DNA from: Boswellia sacra
Taxonomy: Eukaryota > Streptophyta > Magnoliopsida > Sapindales > Burseraceae
Length of the DNA: 64,000 nucleotides
Direction of reading: 5' to 3'
Assembly (NCBI GenBank): GCA_013180625.2
Contig: SNVD02006879.1
Span: 62,001 to 126,000 of the forward strand
Shown here: positions 1 through 35,474 of the stretch, piece by piece
Layout: the number at the start of each line of letters is the position of its first letter
How positions within the stretch are numbered: the first letter of the stretch is position 1
Notes under the pieces: generated by a model
The model's input: the letters and a program-made list of their open reading frames with translations, nothing else
What the model was told of the DNA's origin: nothing
Database searches by the model: none
Position numbers and translations under genes: made by a program

Positions 1-30
1 TTTTACGTCCAGAAACGGCTTGAACACCTT

Positions 31-579
31 TTATGAGTTGGGGATATGCTTTCCATCCAGTTTTCTTATAAACTGGCAAATAGGGTCGTTTTGAATCAGA
101 TTCCCAAGACTATAGCGTTCCTGCTCATCTCGAAATTGTATCCACAATTTAAAAATTTCACGCTGCACAAGTCCACAAGAATGCATCTCAAGAGTCATTC
201 GGATATCATCCAAAGACTCCCTACCCAGTCCATTCTTGATGAACTGTAGTTTATCCTCTCGATTATTAGACAAATATCTCAAGAAGCGGCAACGCTGGTT
301 ACAAGTCCATCTTGCATATTTGGGACAAACTTGTAACCTTTTCGCTCTTCCCTTTTTGGCGTAAGAGCTTTTTCCCACACCTGGCATGTGAGAAACAAGA
401 TTATCTGAAAATTCATAAGAAAATCAAACCTTGGCTTCAATTAACCATCTTACATCAGTAGGCATACCCTTACACATCAACATCCTTAGTCTGTCTGGGC
501 GAGCTTTGTAAATTTTAAGCAAATCATTTTGAGGAAGAGAAGGAAAATGTTTGTGCAATTTTGAGAGAATGGTATCCAT
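31..579 (-). pseudogene. Post-integrase ORF3 of element A, basic Cys-containing protein (virus NABP-like)
   Basis: The frame opens at an ATG at 579 and runs to a stop at 31, broken by one in-frame TGA at 424-426. It starts in the C-terminal part of the integrase frame. Its products match element B's ORF at 19524-20077 in order and wording: an FPSLPQN stretch, a WLIEAKV stretch, a very basic block (YAKKGRAKRLQVC), a Cys-containing segment and an FIKNG stretch. In this copy the Cys segment reads C-x2-Y-x4-C-x3-C, so one ligand seen in B is Tyr. No membrane segment is visible, unlike classic Athila env-like ORFs. The basic block plus short Cys finger recalls nucleic-acid-binding proteins of carla- and allexiviruses. 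That likeness is inference from memory. Confidence 0.7.
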
Positions 580-1487
580 GTGAAGAAAATGAGAGAGAAG
601 GAAAGAAAATGGATGCAAGGTGAGCAACAGTTTTTAGGGAACTGAAAAACCGTGTTTAAAAGCCACGAAGTACCATATCCACCACTTGACAGGAAGAAAT
701 CAATCCTCAAAAAGGATCGACTAAAGCAATGGACTTCATTTTGGTCACAATTTTCAAAAAATATTTTTAACCGTTGTCCATTAACTTTAAACACATTAAC
801 ATTCTTTGGGTTCTTAATTTCGACTGCTCCATGAGGGGAAACATTTTTAACGATGAAAGGCCGAGTCCAAGGAGACCGAAGTTTACCAGGAAACAGGTGC
901 AATGTTGAATCATACAAAAGAACCTTTTGTGAAGGTTCAAAAGATTTTCTAACAATGAATTTGTCATGAAAAAGCTTCATTTTTTCTTTGTAGATTTTAG
1001 AATTTTCATAAGCCTCATTCCTGATTTCTTCAAGTTCAGTCAGTTGGAGTTTACGTAACTTGCAAGCATCATTCAAGTTTGCGTTAAATGTTTTAATGGC
1101 CCAATAAGCTTTATGCTCAATTTTCACAGGCAAGTGACAAGGTTTTTCATAAACTAATCTATAAGGAGACATTCCTAATGATGTTTTGAAAGCAGTTTGG
1201 TAAGCCCAAAGTGCATCATTGAGTCTTAAAGACCAATCTTTACGATTTGGGTTAACCGTTTTTTCTAAGATCTGTTTTATCTCCCTATTAGCTAATTCAA
1301 CTTGTCCACTTGTTTGCGGGTGATAAGGTGTAGAAATTTTATAGGTTATTCCATATTTCTTTATTAAAGTTTCAAATGGTTTGTTACAGAAATGTGTACC
1401 CCTATCACTAATAATGGCTCGAGAAATTCCAAATCTACACAAGATATTCTCTTTCAAGAATTTGATAACTGTTTCGTGATCATTGTT
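486..1487 (-). pseudogene. Element A integrase, catalytic core and C-terminus
   Basis: This frame continues the integrase after a nonsense codon (TGA just inside 1488). The second catalytic Asp sits in IISDRGTHF and the Glu in [12 protein letters not shown], with 35 residues between them, the DD35E spacing of retroviral-type integrases. The first Asp is in the preceding frame (WGIDFMG). A C-terminal GPY/F-like region follows ([18 protein letters not shown]). After about 790 the frame has no recognisable domain and runs over the start of ORF3, so the true integrase end is probably near 780-640. It would integrate element cDNA in the nucleus. The nonsense codon makes it inactive as written. Confidence 0.85.
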
Positions 1488-3161
1488 TCAACATGGAATT
1501 GCATCGACCCATTTTGAAACATAGTCTATTGCAACAAGAATGTACACAAAACCAAATGATGGTGGAAAAGGTCCCATAAAATCAATACCCCAACAGTCAA
1601 AGATTTCAACAACAAGAATGAGATTCAAAGGCATCATGTTTCTTTTTGAAACGGATCCTAATTTTTGACAATTTTCACAAGTTTTGCAAAATGCATGTGC
1701 ATCTTTAAATAGGGTGAGCCAATAAAATCCACATTGCAAGGTTTTAACGGCTGTTTTTCTAGATGAAAAATGTCCTCCACATGCTTTGGAATGATAAAAA
1801 TTAATGACACTACTTACCTCATTGTCGGGTATGCATCTTCTAATTATTTGGTCCGGACAATATTTGAACAGATATGGGTCATCCCAATAAAAATTTTTCA
1901 CCTCGGTCAAAAACTTTCTTTTGCCTTGAGCATTCCAATGAGGTGGCATTTTTCCTATTGCAAGGAAATTTACAATGTTAGCAAACCAAGGTACAGCAGC
2001 AATGGAAAATAAAAATTCATCAGGAAAAGAATCATTGATAGGTGAAGTTTCAATTAATGTCTCTATCGTTAATCTTGAAAGATGATCTGCAACGATATTT
2101 TCGGCTCCTTTCTTATCCTTTATTGTGATGTTGAATTCTTGGAGCAATAAGATCCACCATATCAATCTAGGTTTTGCATCCTGTTTAGACATTAAATATC
2201 TCACAGCTGCATGGTCAGTGTAAACAATCGTGGAAGAACCAATTAAATAAGATTGAAATTTGTCTAGTGCAACTACTACTGCAAGTAGTTCTTTTTTAGT
2301 TGTTGTATAATTCATTTGTGCATAATTTAAAGTCATACTTGCATAGTATATCACATAAGGCTTACCTTCTTTTCTTTGTCCTAAGACAGCACCAACGGCA
2401 TAGTCACTTGCATCACACATCAATTCAAAAGGCAAGGACCAATCAGGAGATTGCATAATTGGAGCAGTTGTTAAAAGTCCAATTAACTTATCAAAGGCAT
2501 TTTGACATTCTTGAGTCCATTCAAAAGAAGTGTCTTTTATTAAGAGGTTACAAAGAGGTTTAGATATAGCACTGAAATTTCTTATGAACCTCCTATAAAA
2601 TCCAACATACCCTAAGAATGAACAGACTTCTTTGACTATTTTTGGTGGAGGAAAATGGAAAATTAATTTCACTTTTGCTTTGTCCACTTCAATTCCCTTA
2701 GAAGACACCACATGACCTAAGACAATTCCCGAAGTGACCATATAATGACATTTTTCCCAATTCAAAAGAAGATCTTTTTCTTCACACCTTTTTAGGACTT
2801 TTTCTAAGTTTTCAAGACAATTACCAGAAGAGTTTCCAAAGACAGTTAAATCATCCATAAAAACTTCTAAACAATGCTCAACCATGTCATTGAAAATGCT
2901 TAACATGCATATTTGAAAAGTGGCTAGGGCATTGCAAAGTCCAAAAGGCATTCTCCTAAATGCAAAAGTGCCGAAGGGGCACATGAATGTGGTCTTTTCT
3001 TGGTCTTTGAGTGCAATAGGAATTTGATAATAGCCTAAATATCCATCAAGAAAGTAGTAGTAGGAGTGCCCTACTACTCTTTCAAGAATTTGGTTAAGGA
3101 AAGGTAAGGGAAAATGGTCTTTTTTGATGACAGCATTTAATTTTCTATAATCAATGCACAT
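1488..3161 (-). pseudogene. Element A reverse transcriptase, RNase H and integrase zinc domain
   Basis: A 557-codon open stretch. RT: first catalytic Asp at residue 39 (FLDGYLGYYQI), FMDD at 101-104. RNase H: Asp250, Glu291, Asp316 and Asp359 in the expected order. Integrase HHCC zinc domain: His457, His464, Cys495, Cys498, then the first catalytic Asp527. The frame begins just after the conserved GWR motif because a single-base shift near 3180 separates it from the upstream polyprotein. It ends at a TGA where the integrase should continue. It would copy element RNA into DNA in virus-like particles. All catalytic residues remain although the reading frame is broken at both ends. Confidence 0.92.
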
Positions 3162-4357
3162 CCTCCAACTAGATGAGATCGAGTTGGTGAAAATTCACCC
3201 TTTTCATTTTTGACTACTGTAATGCTAGATTTCTTAAGTACTACTTGTGTAAGGCTTACCCACTTACTATCAGAAATAGGGTAGATAATTCTCACATCAA
3301 GTAGTTTAAGAACTTCAGCCCTAATCACCTCTTTCATATGGGGATTTAATCTCCTTTGAGGTTGTTGGGATGTTTTGGCATTTTCTTCTAAATGTATTCT
3401 ATGTGTACAAATCAAAGGGTTAATGCCTTTTATGTCTTTTAAAGTCCATCCAATTGCATTTTTATGTCTTTTAAGTACGTGTATCAACTTACCTTGTTGC
3501 TCGCTTGTGAGGGATGAAGAAATTACCATTGGATATGTCTGATTCTTCCCAAGGTATCCATATTTCAGTCCTTCAGGTAAGGGCTTCAGTTCTAACTCGG
3601 GAGCTTGCTCTTCCTTGCTTTCATTCATTTGCCCCAATTCTTCGAATCTTGGTTTTGAGCCTTTTTCTATCACATGTGCACAATCCAATAAAGAACATAT
3701 ATCAGAAAGATCAGACTCTAGTTCCATACTTGATTCTAATGAATTCACTAAACAAGTTTCCAAAGGGTCAGAAGAACTCCCTTTTTGGATGTGATCTTCC
3801 ACAATAGTTTCGATCATATTGGCCTCTTCAATTTCATCTTCTTCTTCATGTGGTTGTTTACACATATTGAAAACATTAAGTTCCAATGTCATGTTCCCAA
3901 ATGATAGCTTCATGACTCAAATCCTGCAATTAATCAAAGCATTAGAGGTAACTAGAAATGGATGCCCTAAAATGATAGGAATTGAATTACATGCTTCCAC
4001 TGGTTGTGTGTCCAAGACGATAAAATCCACTAGATAAATGAATTTATCAACTTGAACTAACATATCTTCTACTACTCCTCTTGGTACTTCAATTGATCTA
4101 TCAACAAGCAAAAGAGTCACAGAAGTCGGTTTTAACTCACCTAGATTGAGTTTCTGAAAAATTGAATATGGAAGCAAATTCACACTAGCACCAAGATCAA
4201 GTAAAGCTTGTTCAATTTTATGGTCTCCAATAACACATGAAATTGTAGGACAACCTGGATCCTTATATTTCACTGTATTATTGTTTTGAAGAATAGCACT
4301 TACTTGCTCGCTAAAAAGGCCTTCTTTTTCACATTCAATTTCCTTTTTACAGTGCAC
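3162..4357 (-). pseudogene. Element A aspartic protease and protease-RT linker
   Basis: 4357-3917 encodes a retroviral-type aspartic protease. The active site reads ALLDLGASVNLLP, with Leu where D-S/T-G is usual, followed later by the IILGHPFL flap/dimer region. A break near 3913-3917 precedes the linker (3913-3137), an acidic stretch followed by the conserved HKNAIGWTLKDIKGI and RRLNPHMKEVI segments that enter the RT fingers. The linker frame ends with a frameshift near 3180. The protease would cut the Gag-Pol polyprotein. The altered active-site loop and two frame breaks make activity unlikely. Confidence 0.85.
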
Positions 4358-5616
4358 AAGTCTTTCAAAAATTTTACATAAGAAGGTACCTGTTTGATCA
4401 CATCTAGCAAGGGAATGTTGACCTTTACTTGTTTGAAAATTTCAAAGATTTCAAAATTGTGAGTTGGCTTCTTTTGTGTGGCTAATGCTTGAGGAAATGG
4501 AGGCACAGATGAGGATTCGGTTTCTTCTTCGCTAGGTGTTGGTTTGGTAACCTTTTCCTGCCCTTTAGAGATCGATTCTTCTTCTTTCTCACAAGGGTTA
4601 GGAATGTGTTTTTCAACAACCTTACCGCTACGAAGGGTCATGACTGATTTGGCTTGGTCAAAATAATGGTCACTTAAACTCCCTGCATTTGAGTTAGATT
4701 GATCTTTGGGGTTTTGCAATGTTTGAGAAGGAAATTTTCCTTTCTCTTGGATGCTAAATGTAGATGCAAATTTTGCAAGAGTGTCTGACAAATTTGCTAA
4801 TGTTTGAGCAGTTTGACTATTGAAAGTCCCTTGCTTTGTAATGAATTAATGCAATGTCTCTTCAAAGTCACTCCTAGGAGGAGGAGCATATGCATGATCG
4901 TGAGAATTTTGAAAATTTTGTCGTGTTTGGAAGGGGACTTGTGAAGATTGTGCATGACTGTCATGTCTCCAACTAAAATTTAGATGATTTGTTTAACTGG
5001 GATTGTAGGTTTATGAGTATGGATTGTGATTTGGCCTTTTGAAAGTGTTGAAGGCATTGGCTTGCTCATGGAGACATTCCCTAAAGGCAGGCAAAGTTGG
5101 GCAATCATCAGTAGAATGGTCATTGTCATTACAAATGTTACAGTCATTTTCTTGAATAGAATTCAATTGACCAATCTTTTTCATGTCTAAAGCCTCAACT
5201 TTTCTAGCTAAGGATGCATATTTGGCTTGAAGGTCATGGTCTTCCCTGAGGTTGTAAATGCCTCTATTGGATGTCAAGGTTGGGGCCTTGCTTGGTACCT
5301 CATAGGTGCCAGCAGTGTCCCAATTTTGTGTTTTTTTTGCCAAGGAATCTAGGTAGTCAATTGCTTCCTCAGGGTCTTTATCTCCAAATTCTCTATTACA
5401 CATTAACTCCACTAGTTGCCTATCTTGAAGTGTTAACCCTTCATAGAAGTGTGCAACTATTCTCCAAGTTTCAAAACCATGGTGAGGACAGGTGTTAAGT
5501 AGTTCCTTATACCTATCCCAACATTGGTAAAGAGTTTCCCCTTGTTTTTGAGTGAAATTGAAAATTTGTCTTTTAAGAGAATTTGTCCTATGGGTAGGAA
5601 AATTTTTTATGCCCAT
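4300..5616 (-). pseudogene. Element A gag, N-terminally truncated
   Basis: 5616-5011 carries the core of the Athila-type gag (FPTHRTNSLKRQI, CPHHGFETWR, FYEGLTLQDRQLVELMCN) and a knuckle-like CNICNDNDHSTDDCP. 4791-4300 carries the gag C-terminal part (VMTLRSGKVVEKHI, VKVNIPLLDVIKQVPSYVKFLKDLC) and overlaps the protease frame. Between 4792 and 5010 the frame is broken. The N-terminal half of gag, which should lie upstream of FPTHRT, is absent. Instead LTR-like sequence begins directly at about 5617. Gag would form the virus-like particle and package RNA; this copy cannot be full length. Confidence 0.85.
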
Positions 5617-14748: not shown

Positions 14749-15604
14749 AATAAAACACAAATTTTTCTTTCACACATCATTATGTGTGTTTCTTGGTTAC
14801 AGCTCTTATCATAAAGGGTATTTTTGTTTATATTCCTCTGACAAGATTTATGTCCTTAAAAGTGTTGCTTTCCATGAAACACAATTTCCTTTTCATGATG
14901 ATAATTTCTTTACTTCTAATACTGGTTCTTCATCATTTATTTTAGACTCTTCCTCATTATCATCATGGTCTTTTCCATTGGCGTCCTCTTCTATTGTGAG
15001 GGATAATAAATCATTACGTCCACCTTCTAGTTCTTCTGAACCTATATTTACTATTCCAGCTTCTCCATTATTGCCTTTCTCAGATCCTAGTCCCTATAAT
15101 ACTCACATTGATAATATCTTGATCTCAATTCTAATCCTGATTCTCCTCTGAACCTGAATTTAATTCTGAACCTGGTACCACAAATTTTCATCCCCTGATC
15201 ACCAAGTCTAAAGCTGGTACTTTCAGACCAAAAACTTTTACAGTTGATCTACAAAGCTAAGTTCCAAATTTAGTTTCTCAAGCCTTCAGTTCTCCTTGTT
15301 GGTAGGCTGCTATGAAAGTAGAATTTGATGTTTTTTTTGTCTAATTCCACTTGGTCATTGGTCCTTTTTCAGCCCTCTATGCATTTAGTTGATTGTAAGT
15401 TGGTATTTAGAATAAAATATAACTTTGATATTAGCCTGCAAAGATAAAAGCCAAGCTTTTTGCCAAAGGCTTATAACAAACACCAATCATTGATTTCTTT
15501 GAGACTTTTAGTCTAGTTATAAAGCCATCCACTATCAGAGTTGTTTTATCTTTGGCTATCACTTTCAATTGGGATATATAACAAATTGCTATCAATAATG
15601 CTTT
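14749..15604 (+). pseudogene. Copia C1 integrase C-terminus to RT start
   Basis: Encodes CVFLGYSSYHKGYFCL, the conserved segment after Copia integrase. A Ser/Pro-rich variable linker follows, then FETFSLVIKPSTIRVVLSLA and NNAF at the start of reverse transcriptase, where element B is inserted. Stops and frameshifts interrupt it near 15150 and 15260-15420. In Copia elements this linker joins integrase and RT in one polyprotein. Confidence 0.85.
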
Positions 15605-17016
15605 TGATAAGTGCTATTTATATATCATTTTCATATCAATTCGTCCATGTTTCTTTGCTATATTCCTTGGTATTTTTATGTTTTTGTGTGGTTTTAATAT
15701 TTGTACGAGTTTTGAAGCAACTTGCACAAAAATGGAGTAAAACCCTTCATTTTCACCTCTGCTAGTCAACCATCTTCTCGGATTTAATTGTATTAATATA
15801 CAATGAACCCGATGACATATTATATACCGTTGGAAAGCTCTCGAAGTCTATTTTCTGGAGAAATTTACGGTTTATAAATCCATTCAGTGTACCAAAAGTT
15901 GTAATCAAAACAGTGTGAGAAGTATAGAAATGTAATTCCACAAATCACTGTAGCATGTATAATACGGGACACTGTAGCAGGTTACTGTAGCAGAGTATTT
16001 AAACACATTTTAGGGTTTTATTTTCATAACTTGAAGAGGGGAGAACGTGGTGGAGGCTGCAGCTCTGGAATTCTTTCATCTCCTGGAGTTCTTGAAGGAG
16101 AAAGGAAGCTTGGAAAGAGGAAGAACTACAATCCAAAGAGAATTACATCAAATTTGCTAAGTTTTTCCCTTCCCTTTCATTTTCTGGAATGTCTCCATGT
16201 TGTATTGTATTTACCACGTTCTTAAACATGTGTAACTGAATCTGAATTGGTTGAGGGTGATTTCAAAGCCCCTGATATGGTTTTTGTAAGTTGATTGTGC
16301 AAGAAGTTGTTATCCAATTCTCTAATTGAAGTTGCTTGTATTTTCCCATATCTAATGCTTATGATTGCTTGCTGATTGTATTTGGAATGGCCAACTGAAT
16401 ATAATCTGGTTGTTGTCTATTGCTAGAGTAGAAATCTTGATCCGTAATTGTCTTGAATTTCTAATCCTTAGTAGCAAAATTGTGATCAGAGATTGCAATT
16501 GGAGAATACAACCTAAGTTAAATAATCCGAGCTTGTGTGTTTATTGCTTAGATCAACCTATCTTTCTTATCGTAATGCATCCATTGAATTAAATTTAGAG
16601 AGCTTGTTCTAGGTTGTTTAATGGATAGAGATTAAATAAAGAGCCTGTTTTGTTTAACAACAAAGTAAGGAAAGATTGGGATAACAGAGCTTGTTGTTAT
16701 CTACGGTTGATAATTTCAATGGTGTAATTGGATGACAATTCTACAATTAATTCGCAAATTCATATCTTGTGGTAGAGAAGGATCCCTTAACCAGGTTTTT
16801 CTCATTGATTTTTCAATCTGTTTAAATTTGCATTGTGTTATTCTTTGCTTGCATTAATATTTCATCTAGTTAATCAATCAACAAAACCCCCCTCATTTAG
16901 TTTATTGTTGCTTTCGAATAACAAATTCAATTAGAATCAATCCTCGTGGGAACGATATCTTACTCATCACTTTATTACTTGTGCGACTAGTATACTTGCT
17001 AGTTTCGAACGCATCA
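15605..17016 (+). repeat. 5' LTR of element B
   Basis: Matches 23341-24754 along its whole length. Begins TGATAAGTGC and ends GAACGCATCA. The short open frames inside recur in the other LTR and are not genes. Confidence 0.95.
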
Positions 17017-17022
17017 AGTTTT

Positions 17023-17040
17023 TGGCGCCGTTGCCGGGGA
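17023..17040 (+). promoter_or_regulatory. Primer binding site of element B
   Basis: TGGCGCCGTTGCCGGGGA lies six bases after the 5' LTR. This is the usual Athila-lineage minus-strand primer site, known to pair with tRNA-Asp. Confidence 0.85.
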
Positions 17041-17122
17041 TTGATTTTCTAATCGATTTGTTATTTTGTTTTCATTGTTGATTCATATTTTTGTTTTTTT
17101 TGATTGTTTGTGTTTAGACGAC

Positions 17123-17706
17123 ATGGCAGTAAACTTCCATCAATTCAGTGGCGGATTGGAGCCACAACTACCATGGAGAGTGAATGAGGTAAGCACTCCG
17201 AACATTGAACAACAACTTTCTGAGTTAACTTCTCTTGTGGAAAACATGGCTGTAGGACATATGCAGAAATCTTATGCATGTGAGGTGTATTCTACCATGG
17301 AGCATCCAATCGACATGTATCCAACTTTGCAAGGAGATATGGAACAAGCCAATACCATGGATGGATTTCCAAGACAAACAAGGCAATGGTATGATCCCTT
17401 CTCTAACACTTGTAATGCTGGATGGGAAGATCACCCTAATTTCAGTTACTGGAACATCAACCAATCGCCCCAAATGCCATACCAAATCGGCCACAAGGTT
17501 TTAATCAACTTAGAGTGCAGAAACCATTTCAAATGCAACCACCACCAATGCCACAACCAGCACCACAACCAGCTTCAGAAAACTCAGGTATGTCACTCCA
17601 GGATATTGTTAATGCACTTGCCACTAACACAATGCAATTCCAGCAGGAAACTGGGCAAGTATCCAAAACCTGGCAAATCAAATGGGACAATTGGCCACTA
17701 GCATGA
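17123..17706 (+). pseudogene. Element B partial gag
   Basis: An ATG at 17123 opens a frame containing IEQQLSELTSLVENMAVGHM, a degenerate zinc-knuckle region (YEVYSTMEHPIDMYPTLQ, where the usual Cys residues are Tyr) and a Pro/Gln/His-rich tail that changes frame near 17510. The gag core seen in element A (CPHHGFETWR) is missing, so the N-terminal two-thirds has been deleted. RNA binding by the knuckle is probably lost. Confidence 0.75.
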
Positions 17707-19102
17707 GCAAATTCGAGGGCCAAGGCTCAGAAGAATTATCTTGTCAAACGGTGATCAATCCAAGAGAGAATTCTTGTGCGATAACTTTGCAAAATGGAGA
17801 ACAATTAGATGTCCTACCAAAGAAATCACAAACTGATGAAGGAGATGACACCACTTCCACCATGAACAAAACAATGACTTCTCAGGTAAATCCTATAACT
17901 CCCATTCCTTCATATGTTTCTCCTCCACTTTTTCCTAGTAGATTTGCAAAATCGAAGGAGGAACAAGAACAAGAAATCCTGAAAACTTCTCACAAAATCG
18001 AGGTAAATATATCACTTCTGGATGATATCGAGCAAGTACCTCATTATACAAAATGTCTCAAGGAGTTATGCACCAGCAAAAGAAAGTTAAAAGAAATGAG
18101 AAAGTAAGTGTGGGGGAAGATGTTTCAGCTATATTGCAAAGGAAAATTCCTCCAAAGTGCAAAGATCCAGGTACGTTCACCATGCCATGCACCATTGGTA
18201 AAACCAAGTTTGAAAGAGTTATGTTACATTTAGAAGCATCTATTAACATCATGCCATATTCTATTTATGCTTCTTTAAATCTTGGACCTTTTGCGGAAGT
18301 TGGTATTACCATTCAAATTGCTGATTGTTTTAATGCATATACCAAAAGAGTTGTGGAAGATGTGCTTGTGCAGGTGAATCAATTGGTTTTCCCAGCAGAC
18401 TTTTATGTTTTTGAAATAGAGGATGAGACATCTCCTAATCCAACACCGATTCTTATAGAGAGACCATTCTCGAAAACTGCTAGAACCAAGATTGATGCTC
18501 ATGATGGCACTCTCACCATAGTGTTTGATGGCAAGGTGATCCGTTTTAATATTTTTGAGGCAATGAGGTACCCTAGTGACTTATATTCTGTTTTTGTAGT
18601 TGACATTACTGATTCTCTGCCACAACAATGTTTTGAGTTAACTTGCAAGAATGGATTGGATGTAGCTATTAGTGAGCACATAGGGACAAAAAATTCTAAG
18701 GAATCAAGAATTTTGATACAAGTGTTTAAAGAAGTGAAGGAAGCTCTGGCAAGCTTAGATGAGACTATAGCCATAACCATAAGTAGGTATGATGTTTCGT
18801 ATATTGAATTATCTTTATCTAATGAGAAACTTCTTCATTCTGTGATGAAGGCCAATTATTGTGGATTCTTGGGTGAGAATGGTACTTTGCCAATTATAAT
18901 AGAAATGGGCCTTGCACCAATACAAGAAGTGAAACTCGTCCAAGTACTTAGAGATCACAAAACGGCTATTGGGTGGACAAGTGCTCACATCCAAGGCCCA
19001 GCCATATGCGTGCAGCATTTCTTGTGGAAAGAAGGATCCAAGCCCACTAGTGAAGCACATCGAAGATTGGATCCTCCCATGATGGAACCAACATCGGGCT
19101 GA
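17682..19102 (+). pseudogene. Element B gag C-terminus, protease and RT approach
   Basis: 17682-18107 encodes the gag tail (ending VNISLLDDIEQVPHYTKCLK). 18053-19102 encodes the protease region, where the active site is ruined (VMLHLEASINIMPYS in place of D-S/T-G), then the linker ending HKTAIGWTSAHIQG and RRLDPPMMEPTSG. It stops exactly where RT should begin. A spacer typical of the end of Athila pol (GCGCTTATTGGGAGGCAACC, from 19117) follows directly. RT, RNase H and integrase are therefore deleted. The protease is inactive as written. Confidence 0.88.
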
Positions 19103-19523
19103 GGACGTTAAACCAAGCGCTTATTGGGAGGCAACCCAATATTTTTGAAAAAAAGAAAAGAAAAATAAAATAAGGAATAATGATCAATTTTTGTGTCTCG
19201 AGGAGATTCCTTTCGTAGACCATCAAATTGACCAGGTTTTATCTCTCTTTGTCATCTGTCTTATTTGTTTTTATATTTTTTTACTTTTGTTTGATATCGT
19301 GTTGTTATCTCTTTTATGTGTCCTTAGTTTCGTTTCTGCTCTTTTCTTTTCCTTTGTTTTGTTTAATTTGATTATTCCGTACTTCGAACTCATTTGTGCA
19401 ACAGCTTGAGGAAACATCCAAACGAGAGCTGAAGCCATTGCTCGAAGGTTTGAAACGTGCATATCTTGGGGAAAAACATACTCAATCGTATTATCGGTAA
19501 TATCTCTTCTTTTCTCCTCTTCA
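19103..19523 (+). other. Post-pol spacer of element B
   Basis: Contains the GGGAGGCAACCCAA motif found downstream of pol in Athila-like elements, then T-rich sequence and a TTCTTTTCTCCTCTTC tract before the ORF3 start. The tract could be a splice acceptor region for ORF3, as proposed for Athila env-like ORFs, but this is inference. Confidence 0.6.
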
Positions 19524-20077
19524 ATGGATGCTGATATCTTTTTGTCGAACCTTCGTAAATATTTTCCTTCACTTCCTCAAAATGCTGTGTTTAAAATTTA
19601 TAAAGTATGGATGACTAGACTTTGGGCGTTGATGCTCCTAAATGTGCCTGCTGATATCCGATGGCTTATCGAAGCCAAGGTGAGATTGTCTGGTGAGCGG
19701 GACATTAATCTCGCAAAATACATGCCTGGTCTAGGAAAAAGCTACTACGCCAAGAGGCGAAGAGCGAAAAGGTTACAAGTATGCTATATATGTGCTAGAT
19801 GGAATTGTAACCAGACTTGTCGTTCATTAGGTTTTGTGTCTAGAAATAGAGAAGATAAACTCTCGTTTATTAAGAATGGCTGAGTAATGAGTCGCTGGAT
19901 AATGTTTTATTAACTCTTGAGTCACATTCTTGTGGACTTGTTCAGCGTGAATTGCTTAATCTATGGACACAATTTCGTGATGAATTGCAGTGTTATAGTC
20001 TAGGGAAGCTGACTAAAAACGACCCTGTTTGCAAGTTTATAAGAAAACTGGATGGGAAGCAAATCCCCGACTCATAG
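19524..20077 (+). pseudogene. ORF3 of element B, basic Cys-finger protein (virus NABP-like)
   Basis: ATG at 19524, open for 119 codons, then TGA at 19881. A one-base shift there restores homology with element A's ORF3 to a TAG at 20075-20077. Visible features are FPSLPQN near the start, a basic block (YAKRRRAKRLQVC), a C-x2-C-x4-C-x3-C cluster, and GFVSRNREDKLSFIKNG. No signal peptide or membrane helix is seen. Conservation between two diverged elements suggests past selection. The basic block followed by a compact Cys finger resembles viral nucleic-acid-binding proteins of carla/allexivirus type, which bind RNA and can counter silencing. That relationship is inferred, not tested. Function in the element is unknown. 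Confidence 0.7.
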
Positions 20078-20301
20078 AAGGCGTTTCAGCCGTTACTGGA
20101 CGTAAAACCAGAGGAAGATGTGAGCTACAATCACAACTACTTGTACATTTGAATGTGCGTTGTTGTTGTTGAATTTTATTTTTTTTTCTTGTTTCGTTTG
20201 ATCTGATTATCAATGTTGTTTTTGTGTTGTTATTGTTTGTTGATTTTGTTTGTTTTAATTTCAAGTTTTCTTTTTGACAAACCATATGACTACCCTATGG
20301 C

Positions 20302-20338
20302 CTGTCTCTTATACACATCTAGATGTGTATAAGAGACA
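20302..20338. other. Tn5 mosaic-end palindrome: Nextera mate-pair junction artefact
   Basis: CTGTCTCTTATACACATCT (20302-20320) is followed at once by its inverse AGATGTGTATAAGAGACA (20321-20338). These are 37 of the 38 bases of the Nextera mate-pair junction adapter. Translated, it gives VSYTHLDVYKRQ, a peptide known from contaminated database entries. It is not plant DNA. The flanks may not be contiguous in the genome. Confidence 0.97.
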
Positions 20339-20530
20339 AGTGTGGAGGTTTTGTCAACCTCCGCCGAAAGTATATCTTTACTTTTCATGCTTCACGTGGG
20401 AGGCAAGTGTGGCGGTTTTGTCAAACCCCGCTGAAAGTATATCTCCATTTTTCATGTTTCACGTGGGAGACAAGTGTGTAGGTTTTGTCAAACCCCGCCA
20501 AAAGCATATCTCTTTTTTTTCAAATCTTGG
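20334..20530 (+). repeat. Three tandem copies of a 67-bp unit
   Basis: Units start at about 20334, 20401 and 20468 (AGRCAAGTGTGG...GGTTTTGTCAA...CCGCC...AAAG). The first unit begins inside the adapter junction, so the array may be longer in the real genome. Confidence 0.8.
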
Positions 20531-20710
20531 GGCGATAAATCTGCATTGAGCAACCCCCACCGAAATTATGTCCCCATGTGTCAAAATTTGACAGTTTTAT
20601 GGGTGTATATATACATTCTGCATATTTTCATATGTCATTCCATAACCTGTCTTGCAATTGAAAAGCATAATATCTAACGTGTCTTACACAAGATTAGAGC
20701 ACTTGTAGAA

Positions 20711-21360
20711 ATGGAGAAAAAACCAATTCGGCGATTCCGCAATATATGCGTATTTTGCGGATCGCAATTTGGTAAAGATGGAGAGTTCACCACAGTAGCT
20801 CTTGATCTTGGTAGGACATTAGCTGCGAGGGGTATTAATTTGATTTATGGAGGGGGGAGTCTTGGGTTAATGGGGTGTGTGTCGACAGCTGCATCCCTAG
20901 GAGGGAGTAAAGTTCTCGGCATTATCCCTAAAACCATTAGCTGTACGAGATATCGTAGGCAATACAATCGGGGAAGAGTTACAGGTCTCTAGCATGCATG
21001 AGCGTATTGCACATATGGTTGTTAAGTCCGATGCATTTATAGCTTGCCTGGTGGTTATGGTACATTAGAGGAGATATTTCAAATCACCTCTTGGGCACAG
21101 CTAAACATCCATCGGAAACCCATTGGTTGTTAAATGTTAATAATTTTTTTGATGGTTTGTTGTCATTTCTTGATCAAGCTGTAGAAAAAAATTTCATCTC
21201 ACCGTCAGCAAGGCAAATGCTGGTTACAGCTTCAACTGCATGATAGTTAATTGACAAACTACAAGAATTCGTCTATTCACCTGATCCAACAATGGCTCGG
21301 ATAAATTGGTTTGGAGAAGGCAAAAAAAGGCGTCAACTGGATTTAACCCTCCATCTGTAA
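20711..21360 (+). pseudogene. LOG: LOG-family cytokinin riboside 5'-monophosphate phosphoribohydrolase, intronless copy in element B
   Basis: ATG at 20711 opens FRNICVFCGSQFGKDGEF and INLIYGGGSLGLMGCVS, the LOG nucleotide-binding start. The copy continues to PTMARINWFG and a TAA at 21358-21360, about 217 codon lengths, normal for LOG. LOG releases active cytokinin bases from nucleotides. The catalytic motif GGYGTLEE is present at about 21052-21080 but in another frame. Breaks are an extra A near 20933, a missing base near 21035-21045, another near 21125, and stops near 21240. Plant LOG genes normally have several introns and none is present, so this looks like an RNA-derived copy captured by the retroelement. 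Placement depends on contiguity across the adapter at 20302. Confidence 0.88.
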
Positions 21361-23340
21361 TCTCTATTTGCTGGTTTGCTTCGTTTTTGTTTACTTTCTT
21401 TTTAGTGTGTTTATTTGAGATTTTTCATGTCATTTCTTTTGAGTTTTTTTTTTCAGGTTATTTATTTCACCCCAGGTAATATTTTCTAATCTTGGCTTTT
21501 AGAGTGGTGGCTTAAAAAGTTCAAGTTCTCTTGAAACGCATTCTGGATTTCTTTAATCCATAATGGCTGAATAAGGAGGCTAACTTCTAAACTTTTTAGA
21601 CCCATTCTAACTGACTTGTTTTGTTTGCTGATTTGTTGGACTTTATTATTTTCTGAGTAAGTTTAGTTTTATGTAATTTAGAGTTGTTATGTGTTTTTGT
21701 CTTTATCAGTTTAGATTCGAAAAAAACAATTGTGGAAAAACCTGAGAATGACAGAATATGGGGTTTCTTAACTCTTGAAACGCATTCTCTCTCAATAAAT
21801 CTGTAGTTTGTTTATTTCATGTTGTTTGAAGTGTCTTGTTTCTTGTTTTGTTCTTTCATAATAAGGGTATATAGGCTGGAAACCTTAAGTCTGCGGGCTA
21901 CTGGTCCTAAGGATTGTTGAAATATACAATCTTGACTCAGGTGTAACAACGCCACGTACCTCTTTTCTTGCATTTTGTGGGTCGATGATAAGATAATGAT
22001 TGAATTAAGAATAACTCTTGGAAAATGATAAATGATGCATGGATCTGTGTGCTTGAAATGTTTATTGGTTTTCGCTTTGCTTTTGATTCCTTGCGCAACA
22101 TTGAGCACTGAGCTATTATCACTGAGTTATTTGTTCACTTAGAGAAAGTTTATGTAATTTAAATGTTTCTTCAGATTTCAATGAATTCTAGAACTTGTTT
22201 GATGGTCACTCGAGGCGAAATCCTAGACTGTGCAACATTGGGGAAATGATTTAGGCCATCTTTGGACCGTTTGAGCCTTAATAGCCAACCTTGACTGAAA
22301 TTGATCCCTAGTTACCCCTTTGAGCCTTTGTAAGCCTTTTTCTTTGTTAACTCACTAAAAGATTTCCTAACCTCAAATGAATTTGTTCCAAACAGTTTAT
22401 CCCTTACCTATGAGCATGTAGATCATTCACAATTAAATTTTGAGCTATGTTCGGTTTTGGGAAGTTAGAGGAGGTTGGGATGTGTCATGAGCAATGCAAG
22501 TGAGTTCTATTGTGTTTGTAAAAAAAAAAGAAAAAAAGAAAAAAAAACCAATATGTACTTATCGTCCACGTACTTACACATTGAGGACAATGTGTTGTTT
22601 AAGTGTGGGGGAGGGGAAGTGTAATAAAAAAAAAAAAAAAAGAAGAAAAAAAAGAACAAAAAGAAGAAGAATAAGAGATCTATACCCTTAAGTGTTCTTA
22701 AAAAGAATGAAACAACAAAGTGTGGGGGTGTAGTTTTCTTTTGTTTTCTGCAAAAAAAAAAAAAAAAGATTGAGTGTTCTAAATAAGTTTGGGGGAGTAA
22801 CCTGCTGAATTGAAATGAAGTTGTGTTATAGGGTTGAGCTCTACACAGTCTTGAATAATTTATGTGTTTGTGGGTGATTTGAGCCAAATTATTATCCTTT
22901 ATCATACCTTCACCCAAGCCAAACGTTACAAGCTTAATAAAGTCCTACTTGATCCTTGGTGTTGTGCATGTCTACATTAGTGGAGAGTGACTTGAAAAGC
23001 AGGCCTATGGAGTTCATTTATACACACATCTTCAATATTAAATATGATTCATTTTTATGCATAAACTCATTCGGGTTACAAGTGATTAGGTGAGAATGGC
23101 TCTACACACACACACTTGAGGAATTGAAGTGAAGCGAAACTAATCCTTGAGATGAAATTCTTGATCAAGTGCATTATTTTGAAGTTTTCCTTGGGTTATA
23201 ATTAAGTACAATCTTTGAGGCCTATTTGCAAGATGAAGCATTTGTGTGTTTTAATTTTTTGTTGATTCTGTTTCGGTTTAGTTTTATTTCATATTATCAT
23301 AGTTGCTCGAGGACTAGCAAAGTCTAAGTGTGGGGGAATT
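21361..23340 (+). other. 3' untranslated region and polypurine tract of element B
   Basis: No coding signal. It holds several GTGTGGGGG purine tracts (about 22598, 22718, 22788), A-rich runs (22520-22550, 22625-22660, 22752-22767), and finally the polypurine tract TGTGGGGGAATT (23329-23340) next to the 3' LTR. Such extended G-rich regions before the LTR are typical of Athila-lineage elements. The tract primes plus-strand DNA synthesis. Confidence 0.75.
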
Positions 23341-24754
23341 TGATAAGTGTCTATTTATATATCATTTTCATATCAATTCGTCCATGTTTCTTTGCTATAT
23401 TCCTTGGTATTTTTATGTTTTTGTGTGGTTTTGATGTTTGTAGGAGTTTTGGAGCAACTTGCACAAAAATGGAGTAAAACCCTTCATTTTCACCTCTGCT
23501 AGTCAACTATCTTCTCGGATTTAATTGTATTGATATACAATGAACCCGATGACATATTATATACCGTTGGAAAGCTCTCGAAGTCTATTTTCTGGAGAAA
23601 TTTACGGTTTATAAATCCATTCAGTGTACCAAAAGTTGTAATCAAAACAGTGTGAGAAGTATAGAAATGTAATTCCACAAATCACTGTAGCATGTATAAT
23701 ACGGGACACGGTAGCTGGTTACTGTAGCAGAGTATTTAAACACATTTTAGGGTTTTATTTTTAGAACTTGAAGGGGGGAGAATGTGGTGGAGGCTGTAGC
23801 TCTGGAATTCTTTCATCTCCTGGAGTTCTTGAAGGAGAAAGAAAGCTTGGAAAGAGGAAGAACTACAATCCAAAGAGAATTACATCAAATTTGCTAAGTT
23901 TTTCCCTTCCCTTTCATTTTCTGGAATGTCTCCATGTTGTATTGTATTTACCACGTTCTTAAACATGTGTAACTGAATCTGAATTGGTTGAGGGTGATTT
24001 CAAAGCCCCTGATATGGTTTTTGTAAGTTGATTGTGCAAGAAGTTGTTATCCAATTCTCTAATTGAAGTTGCTTGTATTTTCCCATATCTAATGCTTATG
24101 ATTGCTTGCTGGATTGTATTTGGAATGGCCAACTGAATATAATCTGGTTGTTGTCTATTGCTAGACTAGAAATCTTGATCCGTAATTGTCTTGAATTTCT
24201 AATCCTTAGTAGCAAAATTGTGATCAGAGATTGCAATTGGAGAATACAACCTAAGTTAAATAATCCGAGCTTGTGTGTTTATTGCTTAGATCAACCTATC
24301 TTTCTTATCGTAATGCATCCATTGAATTAAATTTAGAGAGCTTGTTCTAGGTTGTTTAATGGATAGAGATTAAATAAAGAGCCTGTTTTATTTAACAACA
24401 AAGTAAGGAAAGATTGGGATAACAGAGCTTGTTGTTATCTACGGTTGATAATTTCAATGGTGTAATTGGATGACAATTCTACAATTAATTCGCAAATCCA
24501 TATCTTGTGGTAGAGAAGGATCCCTTAACCAGGTTTCTCTCATTGATTTTTCAATCTGTTTAAATTTGCATTGTGTTATTCTTTGCTTGCATTAATATTT
24601 CATCTAGTTAATCAATCAACAAAACCCCCCTCATTTAGTTTATTGTTGCTTTCGAATAACAAATTCAATTAGAATCAATCCTCATGGGAACGATATCTTA
24701 CTCATCACTTTATTACTTGTGCGACTAGTATACTTGCTAGTTTCGAACGCATCA
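23341..24754 (+). repeat. 3' LTR of element B
   Basis: Begins TGATAAGTGT right after the polypurine tract and ends GAACGCATCA, followed by the duplication GCTTT. Near-identical to 15605-17016. Confidence 0.95.
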
Positions 24755-25265
24755 GCTTTCTTAAATAGGGATTTATAGGAAGATGTATATATAACTTAGC
24801 CAGTAGGTTTTGTTGATATCTCTAGATCAGATTATGTCTGCAAACTTCATAAATCTTTGTATGGATTGAAGCAGGCTCTTAGAGCCTGATTTGACAAAAG
24901 CTCTACTTCAGTGGGAGTTTTGTGCATCTTTAGCTGACACTAGTCTGTTCATCTACAAGAATAAAGACACAATGAATCTGTTACTAGTCCATGTTGATGA
25001 TATTTTAATCAGAGGTAGTGATACTGCTAAGCTGTAATAGGTTATCTCTGACATAAACAAAAAGTTTTCACTAAAAAGTCTTGGTGCAGTTCACTACTTC
25101 TTAGGATTTGCGATTAAAAGAAGTAAAGATGCTCTCCTGCTTACTCAAAACAAGTATGCTTGAGATTTGTTGAAGAGATGTGGAATGATAAAAGCCAAAG
25201 GAATTCAAACACAAATGGTTGCAAATATAAAACTATTAATAAATGATAGTGAACCTTTTGAGCAA
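24755..25265 (+). pseudogene. Copia C1 reverse transcriptase, middle part
   Basis: Continues the RT from the break at 15604: PVGFVDISRSDYVCKLHKSL and YGLKQAL, then the catalytic box LLVHVDDILI near 24985-25015, KFSLKSLGAVHYFLGF, and LLLTQNKYA. Stops and a frameshift interrupt it (for example near 24795, 24885 and 25036). Ends at EPFEQ, where the solo LTR is inserted. Confidence 0.88.
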
Positions 25266-34910: not shown

Positions 34911-35474
34911 CTACAGTCCAAGAAATCTCTTACAGGCTTTCAGGATCTTGCCTCTGCTATGCTTCTTCACAGATCTTGTTCCTTCCATTCCAAAGCCATC
35001 TTCATAGTAATCATCAATAGGAGATGACAAGGTCACAGACTGGTCATGGATCCTGCGATACCTTTCTGAAACAGAAGCACTTCTTCTCATGGAGAATGCC
35101 CTCTTCACTGCAGACTGAACCACTGCAGAAGCCGAGGAAACTGAGCTGTTCCTACTCAGCTTCACATGACCAAACCTCTCGCCACCATTGCACTCTCGAG
35201 GATGATGATGATGATAATCATCTGAGTACTCCTCCTGCTGATCTGAAAATGATGAATCTTGTGGGGATTTTCTCTTGTTGGGATTCCTGATGATAATCTG
35301 GTGATTGGTAATTTCCTGGAATTTGGTTACAGAGTTTGGAGTAGTAGTGGCACTAGATATGGATTTTGGATTTTGAGGAACTGATGGTGGTGATGATAAA
35401 AGATCTGATGAAAAGTCCATGGATCTTGATTTGGTAGCAGTGCCAATGATTTTCATCTTGGAGTAACCATTCAT
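34911..35474 (-). CDS. Plant-specific Ser-rich basic protein of unknown function, intact
   Basis: A single uninterrupted exon of 187 codons from ATG at 35474. The N-terminal half is Ser/Thr/Pro-rich and low in complexity (an SSPPSVPQNP stretch), with basic NKRKS at 66-70 and a His run at 88-91. The conserved-looking core is FSMRRSASVSERYRRIHDQ (127-145), followed by an acidic DDYYEDGF patch and a basic C-terminus (KHSRGKILKACKRFLGL). RRSAS and RNSS fit basophilic kinase sites. No signal peptide or membrane helix is visible. I recall similar RRS.SVSERY.RIHDQ proteins in other angiosperms but know no function for them. The next Met (residue 7) is an alternative start. A TATA box lies about 140 bp upstream. 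One of two intact host genes in the window. Confidence 0.85.
   Translation of the reverse strand: MNGYSKMKIIGTATKSRSMDFSSDLLSSPPSVPQNPKSISSATTTPNSVTKFQEITNHQIIIRNPNKRKSPQDSSFSDQQEEYSDDYHHHHPRECNGGERFGHVKLSRNSSVSSASAVVQSAVKRAFSMRRSASVSERYRRIHDQSVTLSSPIDDYYEDGFGMEGTRSVKKHSRGKILKACKRFLGL

Follow-up and report, generated by a model that had tools for sequence, protein, structure and literature searches.

A palindrome at 20302-20338 is almost certainly a residual mate-pair junction adapter in place of native retrotransposon sequence

Why does a plant genome assembly carry a 36-base perfect palindrome inside a retrotransposon copy, and do the sequences on its two sides belong together? We addressed these questions in a 64-kb stretch of the assembly (the window; 64,000 nucleotides, numbered from its first base and equal to positions 62001-126000 of contig C3492). 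The sequence at 20302-20338 is almost certainly a residue of the mate-pair junction adapter, presumably brought in by reads that were not clipped; it replaces roughly 20 native bases and does not reflect biology.

Identity of the palindrome

Over 37 consecutive bases, 20302-20338 is identical to the Nextera-type mate-pair junction adapter, a 38-bp sequence in which a 19-bp Tn5 mosaic end is followed directly by its inverse, so that two mosaic ends stand head to head. The 19-mer CTGTCTCTTATACACATCT matches exactly at 20302-20320 on the forward strand, and its inverse abuts at 20321-20339, the sole mismatch being the last base, which is A in the window and G in the adapter. Here the native sequence GAGACAAGTG takes over, and the adapter's final G is missing because native sequence resumes with A; the 37 adapter bases are annotated as an artefact, with no strand assigned.

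The perfect palindrome extends from 20303 to 20338 (arm length, 18) and is the longest in the window, the runners-up being AT runs with arms of 13 bases; the longest arms in 20 order-2 Markov simulations were 7 to 11 bases. Allowing up to 3 mismatches, the 19-mer matches the window twice (expectation, 0.03), a number reached in 0 of 100 shuffles. An earlier note on this DNA had described a 19-base mosaic end followed by its inverse, exact over 37 bases, and had attributed it to an assembled remnant of the mate-pair junction adapter; the description was verified, with 37 of the 38 adapter bases present, and the attribution agrees both with this identity and with the abundance of the 38-mer in the assembly.

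The mosaic end was engineered as a hybrid between the natural Tn5 ends. The 19-mer is named as the Tn5 mosaic end in two publications (PMC2229646, PMC10037646), and a third prints the 38-mer as the biotin-labelled ring adapter of a mate-pair type library, where it is ligated to sonicated DNA (PMC7357533). According to the NextClip paper, the junction of the Nextera kit consists of two joined 19-bp adaptors, and unprocessed reads lead to a lower scaffold N50 (PMC3928519).

Other adapters were also screened by their 13-mers. Those of TruSeq, Nextera R1/R2, P5, P7, 454, and ONT had no match in the window, and the SMRTbell 13-mer matches at 20158-20172 are a GTT repeat.

Occurrence in the assembly and in other records

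The assembly that holds the window comprises 638,608,913 bases in 7,431 contigs, and the exact 38-mer occurs in it at 2,118 places, compared with none for a control pattern, the 38-mer read backwards. The 37-mer occurs 2,124 times in forward and 2,119 times in reverse orientation. From the differences between the 37-mer and 38-mer counts, the final G is missing at 6 of about 2,125 sites, including the site in the window, and the first C is missing at 1, such that the outer two bases deviate at only 7 of the approximately 2,125 adapter sites. Gene models, palindrome surveys, repeat dating, and peptide searches based on this assembly will meet the 38-mer 2,118 times, making it a flag on data quality.

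The sequence also occurs in unrelated organisms. The exact 38-mer is present in 7 stretches of viral contigs and in 5 plasmid records, and bacterial genome contigs contain its 36-base core in at least 120 stretches. Among the matches listed, 127 viral and bacterial stretches contain 156 core sites, 149 of which are full 38-mers and 7 of which lack one edge base. The 38-mer had no match in E. coli complete genomes, and the window stretch 20250-20400, used as the query, had none in phage records. A 9-base match between flanks was found at 1 of 148 bacterial and viral controls. At the control junctions (L001-L127), base composition is biased, with G as the first base on the right in 57 of 134 cases and C as the first base on the left in 67 of 134. 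A target preference of Tn5 would give a base bias beside the adapter.

Residues of this kind in public assemblies (Enterococcus, an Ideonella metagenome-assembled genome, Scytonema, and a Cronobacter plasmid) resemble the window in having the exact adapter sequence inside contigs. The Cronobacter plasmid, published as complete, contains at positions 3001-3567 of the retrieved stretch (L128) two 38-bp adapters around a piece that includes 343 inverted bases, whereas only about 20 bases are replaced in the window. It is the one plasmid control that was compared with a relative, and its outer flanks are collinear with that relative; part of the difference is an IS903-type element, so that an assembly error is the probable, though not certain, cause of the inversion.

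Native sequence at the site

The adapter lies within an LTR retrotransposon, here called element B, whose membership in this class is indicated by paired LTRs, a primer-binding site, a polypurine-tract-like sequence, and a 5-bp target-site duplication, features that classify the host element only. All are on the forward strand. Comparison of the LTRs places the 5' LTR at 15605-17016 and the 3' LTR at 23341-24754, with 19 substitutions and 2 gap columns between them. The sequence TGGCGCCGTTGCCGGGG at 17023-17039 is, as in LTR elements of this kind, presumably the primer-binding site, and the polypurine-tract-like AAGTGTGGGGGAA at 23326-23338 adjoins the 3' LTR, an identical 13-mer being found also at 18106. 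The target-site duplication GCTTT is present at 15600-15604 and 24755-24759; the probability that two random 5-mers of the window match by chance is 0.0019. A tandem array of 67-bp units (2.8 units, 20333-20519) starts at the adapter, and its unit number, which differs between element copies, is uncertain in the copy within the window.

When the left flank was used as the query against the assembly, the best 40 of 1,347 candidates comprised the window itself and 39 other matches at 96 to 98% identity. Nineteen of these 39 best-scored matches (L139-L157), together with one copy found next to a further adapter site (L136), served as comparison copies. Every one of the 20 has the left flank, 19 to 20 native bases, and the right flank in this order on one strand. 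Eleven of the 20 copies match the typical native 20-mer, ATAAGTACACGTGGGAGACA, exactly, and 17 have GAGACA at the site. This hexamer, at 20333-20338 in the window, is common to the tail of the adapter and to the native sequence, such that the return to native DNA takes place in or directly after it; the clear loss amounts to 14 native bases, and native sequence continues with the A that follows the hexamer. Because the flanks lie 19 to 20 native bases apart in every comparison copy, the adapter has taken the place of about 20 native bases, i.e., the 14 that are clearly gone plus GAGACA. The few bases at the adapter site itself stay uncertain, and a natural change could distinguish the copy in the window from the 20 used for comparison.

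The agreement among the other copies, together with the intact ends of the element, indicates that the two flanks belong together. The earlier note had cautioned that kilobases might separate the flanks or that their orientation might differ, which finds no support in the 20 copies in which they are neighbors or in the matching target duplications at the element ends. It had further regarded the locus as an assembled circularization junction. In a circle, the end of a fragment is linked to the upstream start of that fragment, and if such a mate-pair molecule had been assembled whole, the left flank would be the end and the right flank the start of a single fragment, with kilobases between them in the actual genome. 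Arrangements of this type do exist: among 134 testable bacterial and viral control sites (8 close to the end of a stretch and 14 next to runs of N having been set aside), copies of the flanks showed the circle arrangement alone at 36, a mixed arrangement at 11, the opposite arrangement at 13, and an inverted one at 1, with no copies within the stretch at 73, and the right flank lies upstream of the left at 2 of 47 sites sampled from the plant assembly. Against this reading at the window site stand not only the neighboring positions of the flanks in all 20 copies but also the intact LTR polarity and target duplication, as well as the lack of an upstream copy in the window of the right 25 bases and of a downstream copy of the left 25 bases (4 or fewer mismatches, with the array's own units downstream excepted). 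At this locus the right flank comes directly downstream, unlike in a single circle junction read through, and in its simple form, in which two distant places are joined, that part of the earlier reading is not supported; a whole assembled circle is very unlikely. The absence of a circle topology lowers only the whole-circle claim, since it is a feature of the junction read and not of the adapter sequence. The earlier note was thus right on the identity of the adapter and on the contaminant peptide considered below and too cautious on the structure, displaced flanks and a single circle junction being the parts that gained no support, and the verdict is that of an artefact.

Adapter sites elsewhere in the assembly

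We compared the window with 47 other adapter sites, comprising 46 of 50 listed sites (contigs C2 to C145) and one met in a comparison copy (L151); the 4 listed sites in C148, C156, and C157 lay outside the sample, which is not a random draw, since its contigs are about 13 kb or about 130 kb where size is shown. For each site, 300 bases per side were aligned to the element in the window. All 47 sites have the full 38-mer, and 42 have a flank in the element B family. At 31 sites, the flanks are collinear with the element, with between -9 and 51 native bases replaced (median, 32) and replaced lengths of 15 to 55 bases at 29 of these. The pairing of the flanks is specific to the site, with 31 of 34 true pairs collinear versus 14 of 1,122 pairs crossed between sites. 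The window site is atypical in having 20 native bases replaced, compared with the median of 32, and in having 37 adapter bases instead of 38. No stretch of about 30 bases is lost at two of the collinear sites, L184 (-9) and L170 (1).

The remaining 16 sites are those at which only the right flank (6 sites), only the left flank (2 sites), or neither flank (5 sites) aligned to the element, those at which the right flank lay upstream (2 sites), and one with a forward gap of over 2,000 bases. At least one of these sites, L163, was scored as right-only because its left flank ends in a masked stretch. Because these 16 sites are not simply collinear, some of them may be real misjoins. The collinearity of the sampled flanks indicates that adapters in a high-copy family tend to stand in for native sequence of about their own length. 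In the sample, a short native stretch was overwritten at most of the 31 collinear sites, and pieces out of order were clearly joined at few. By this pattern, the structures around an adapter are often trustworthy, unlike the site itself over a few tens of bases.

The adapter of L163 (402-439) follows ATAAGTACACGTG in a different element copy, at a position only about 13 bases beyond that in the window, such that two element copies were struck at nearly the identical place.

The abundance of exact copies, together with the concentration of sampled flanks in one element family, is also what might be seen if a real 38-bp palindromic insertion sequence, native to this genome, were jumping into the retrotransposon family. 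A mobile 38-mer would leave a duplicated target where it inserts. The flanks overlap by exactly 9 bases at 2 of the 47 sites (L165 and L184), which this reading would count as target duplications, but a flank duplication of 5 or more bases is absent at the other 45 and the window site has none at all, and at most collinear sites native bases are missing, in numbers that vary from site to site. The sequence is, moreover, a laboratory reagent that occurs in unrelated bacteria, viruses, and plasmids, and at its outer two bases no more than 7 of about 2,125 sites deviate, whereas the 39 best-scored left flanks differ by 2 to 4%. A native insertion sequence is therefore improbable in the extreme. 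The 9-base overlaps at L165 and L184 are as would be expected for the two sides of one tagmentation cut, 9 bases being the length of the gap left by Tn5 as given in PMC10037646.

The same publication states that Tn5 mobilizes DNA flanked by two mosaic ends, which raises a third reading, that of a genuine Tn5-derived transposon or an engineered insertion in the plant. The two mosaic ends in the window abut with no cargo between them, however, and the site lacks a 9-bp target duplication (CCCTATGGC versus AGTGTGGAG), making this the least probable of the alternatives, with hardly any chance of being correct.

Under the preferred reading, that of residual adapter, mate-pair reads left unclipped at the junction would have entered the assembly, or the closing of gaps, of the plant genome. 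Within a high-copy LTR retrotransposon family, the assembler would then have accepted an adapter-bearing path between two stretches that are true neighbors, with 37 adapter bases replacing about 20 native bases in the window and the path re-entering native sequence through the 6-base overlap GAGACA. Unclipped mate-pair reads are the presumed source, and we infer that the responsible step was bubble choice, contig extension, or gap filling. The pattern at the sampled sites is what repeat resolution or gap closing with such reads would give. The evidence tips slightly toward a systematic failure, in which unclipped junctions provided an abundant alternative path of nearly native length that was picked at some 2,100 places. 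If so, about 30 native bases would often have been overwritten with long-range order kept, and the assembly would have passed scaffold-level checks with its local sequence, gene models, and repeat annotation broken.

Open frame across the adapter

A spurious open frame, which is not a gene, spans the adapter on the forward strand (20259-20549) and encodes the peptide VSYTHLDVYKRQ. The exact 12-mer is present in all 90 database proteins returned (E ≤ 10; 245 candidates scored), and on this basis the earlier claim that the peptide is a known contaminant holds, although a literature search found no paper with the peptide in print. The residues VWR follow the peptide in 79 of the 90 protein matches. 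They were considered as part of a longer fixed adapter, a possibility rejected in that TGTGG follows 0 of 134 control junctions, and the excess of VWR is taken as a probable effect of how database candidates are picked.

Other features of the window

Between the open reading frames of element B and its 3' LTR lies a coding copy resembling LOG, the cytokinin-activating phosphoribohydrolase (20711-21360, forward strand). It is apparently intronless and disrupted in frame, and it matches PF18306, PF03641, and PDB entry 2a33. LOG-like DNA is present in 18 of the 19 other element copies read, so that the element family seems to have taken up a host-type gene and amplified it along with itself.

No reverse transcriptase or integrase match was found among the scanned open reading frames of element B (15605-24754), smaller pieces lying outside the scan, and no open reading frame of 150 or more amino acids with a common start was found between the end of the protease-like frame at 19102 and the adapter. 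The copy of element B in the window looks non-autonomous, judging from its reading frames. A stop-to-stop frame of 157 amino acids at 19410-19880 (forward strand) matches the Pfam families Viral_NABP (E = 7e-9) and Carla_C4 (E = 1.7e-4), which are nucleic-acid-binding proteins of the carlavirus type. Its DNA occurs in 18 of the 19 other element copies, partially in one of them, and homologous DNA is found on the minus strand at 1-552 of the window. The frame has 147 database relatives at E ≤ 0.001, and the 120 of them that were listed include proteins of Populus, Orobanche, Acer, Striga, and Xanthoceras; a literature search, judged by titles, found no paper on a frame of this kind.

A second Gypsy-type element occupies 1-5616 on the minus strand and extends to the window's left edge. 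It has matches to reverse transcriptase, RNase H, and the integrase zinc-binding domain, with the integrase core below the cutoff. Farther downstream, a gene of 187 amino acids at 34914-35474 has its nearest named matches in rosid plants, e.g., Corchorus, Melia, and Citrus.
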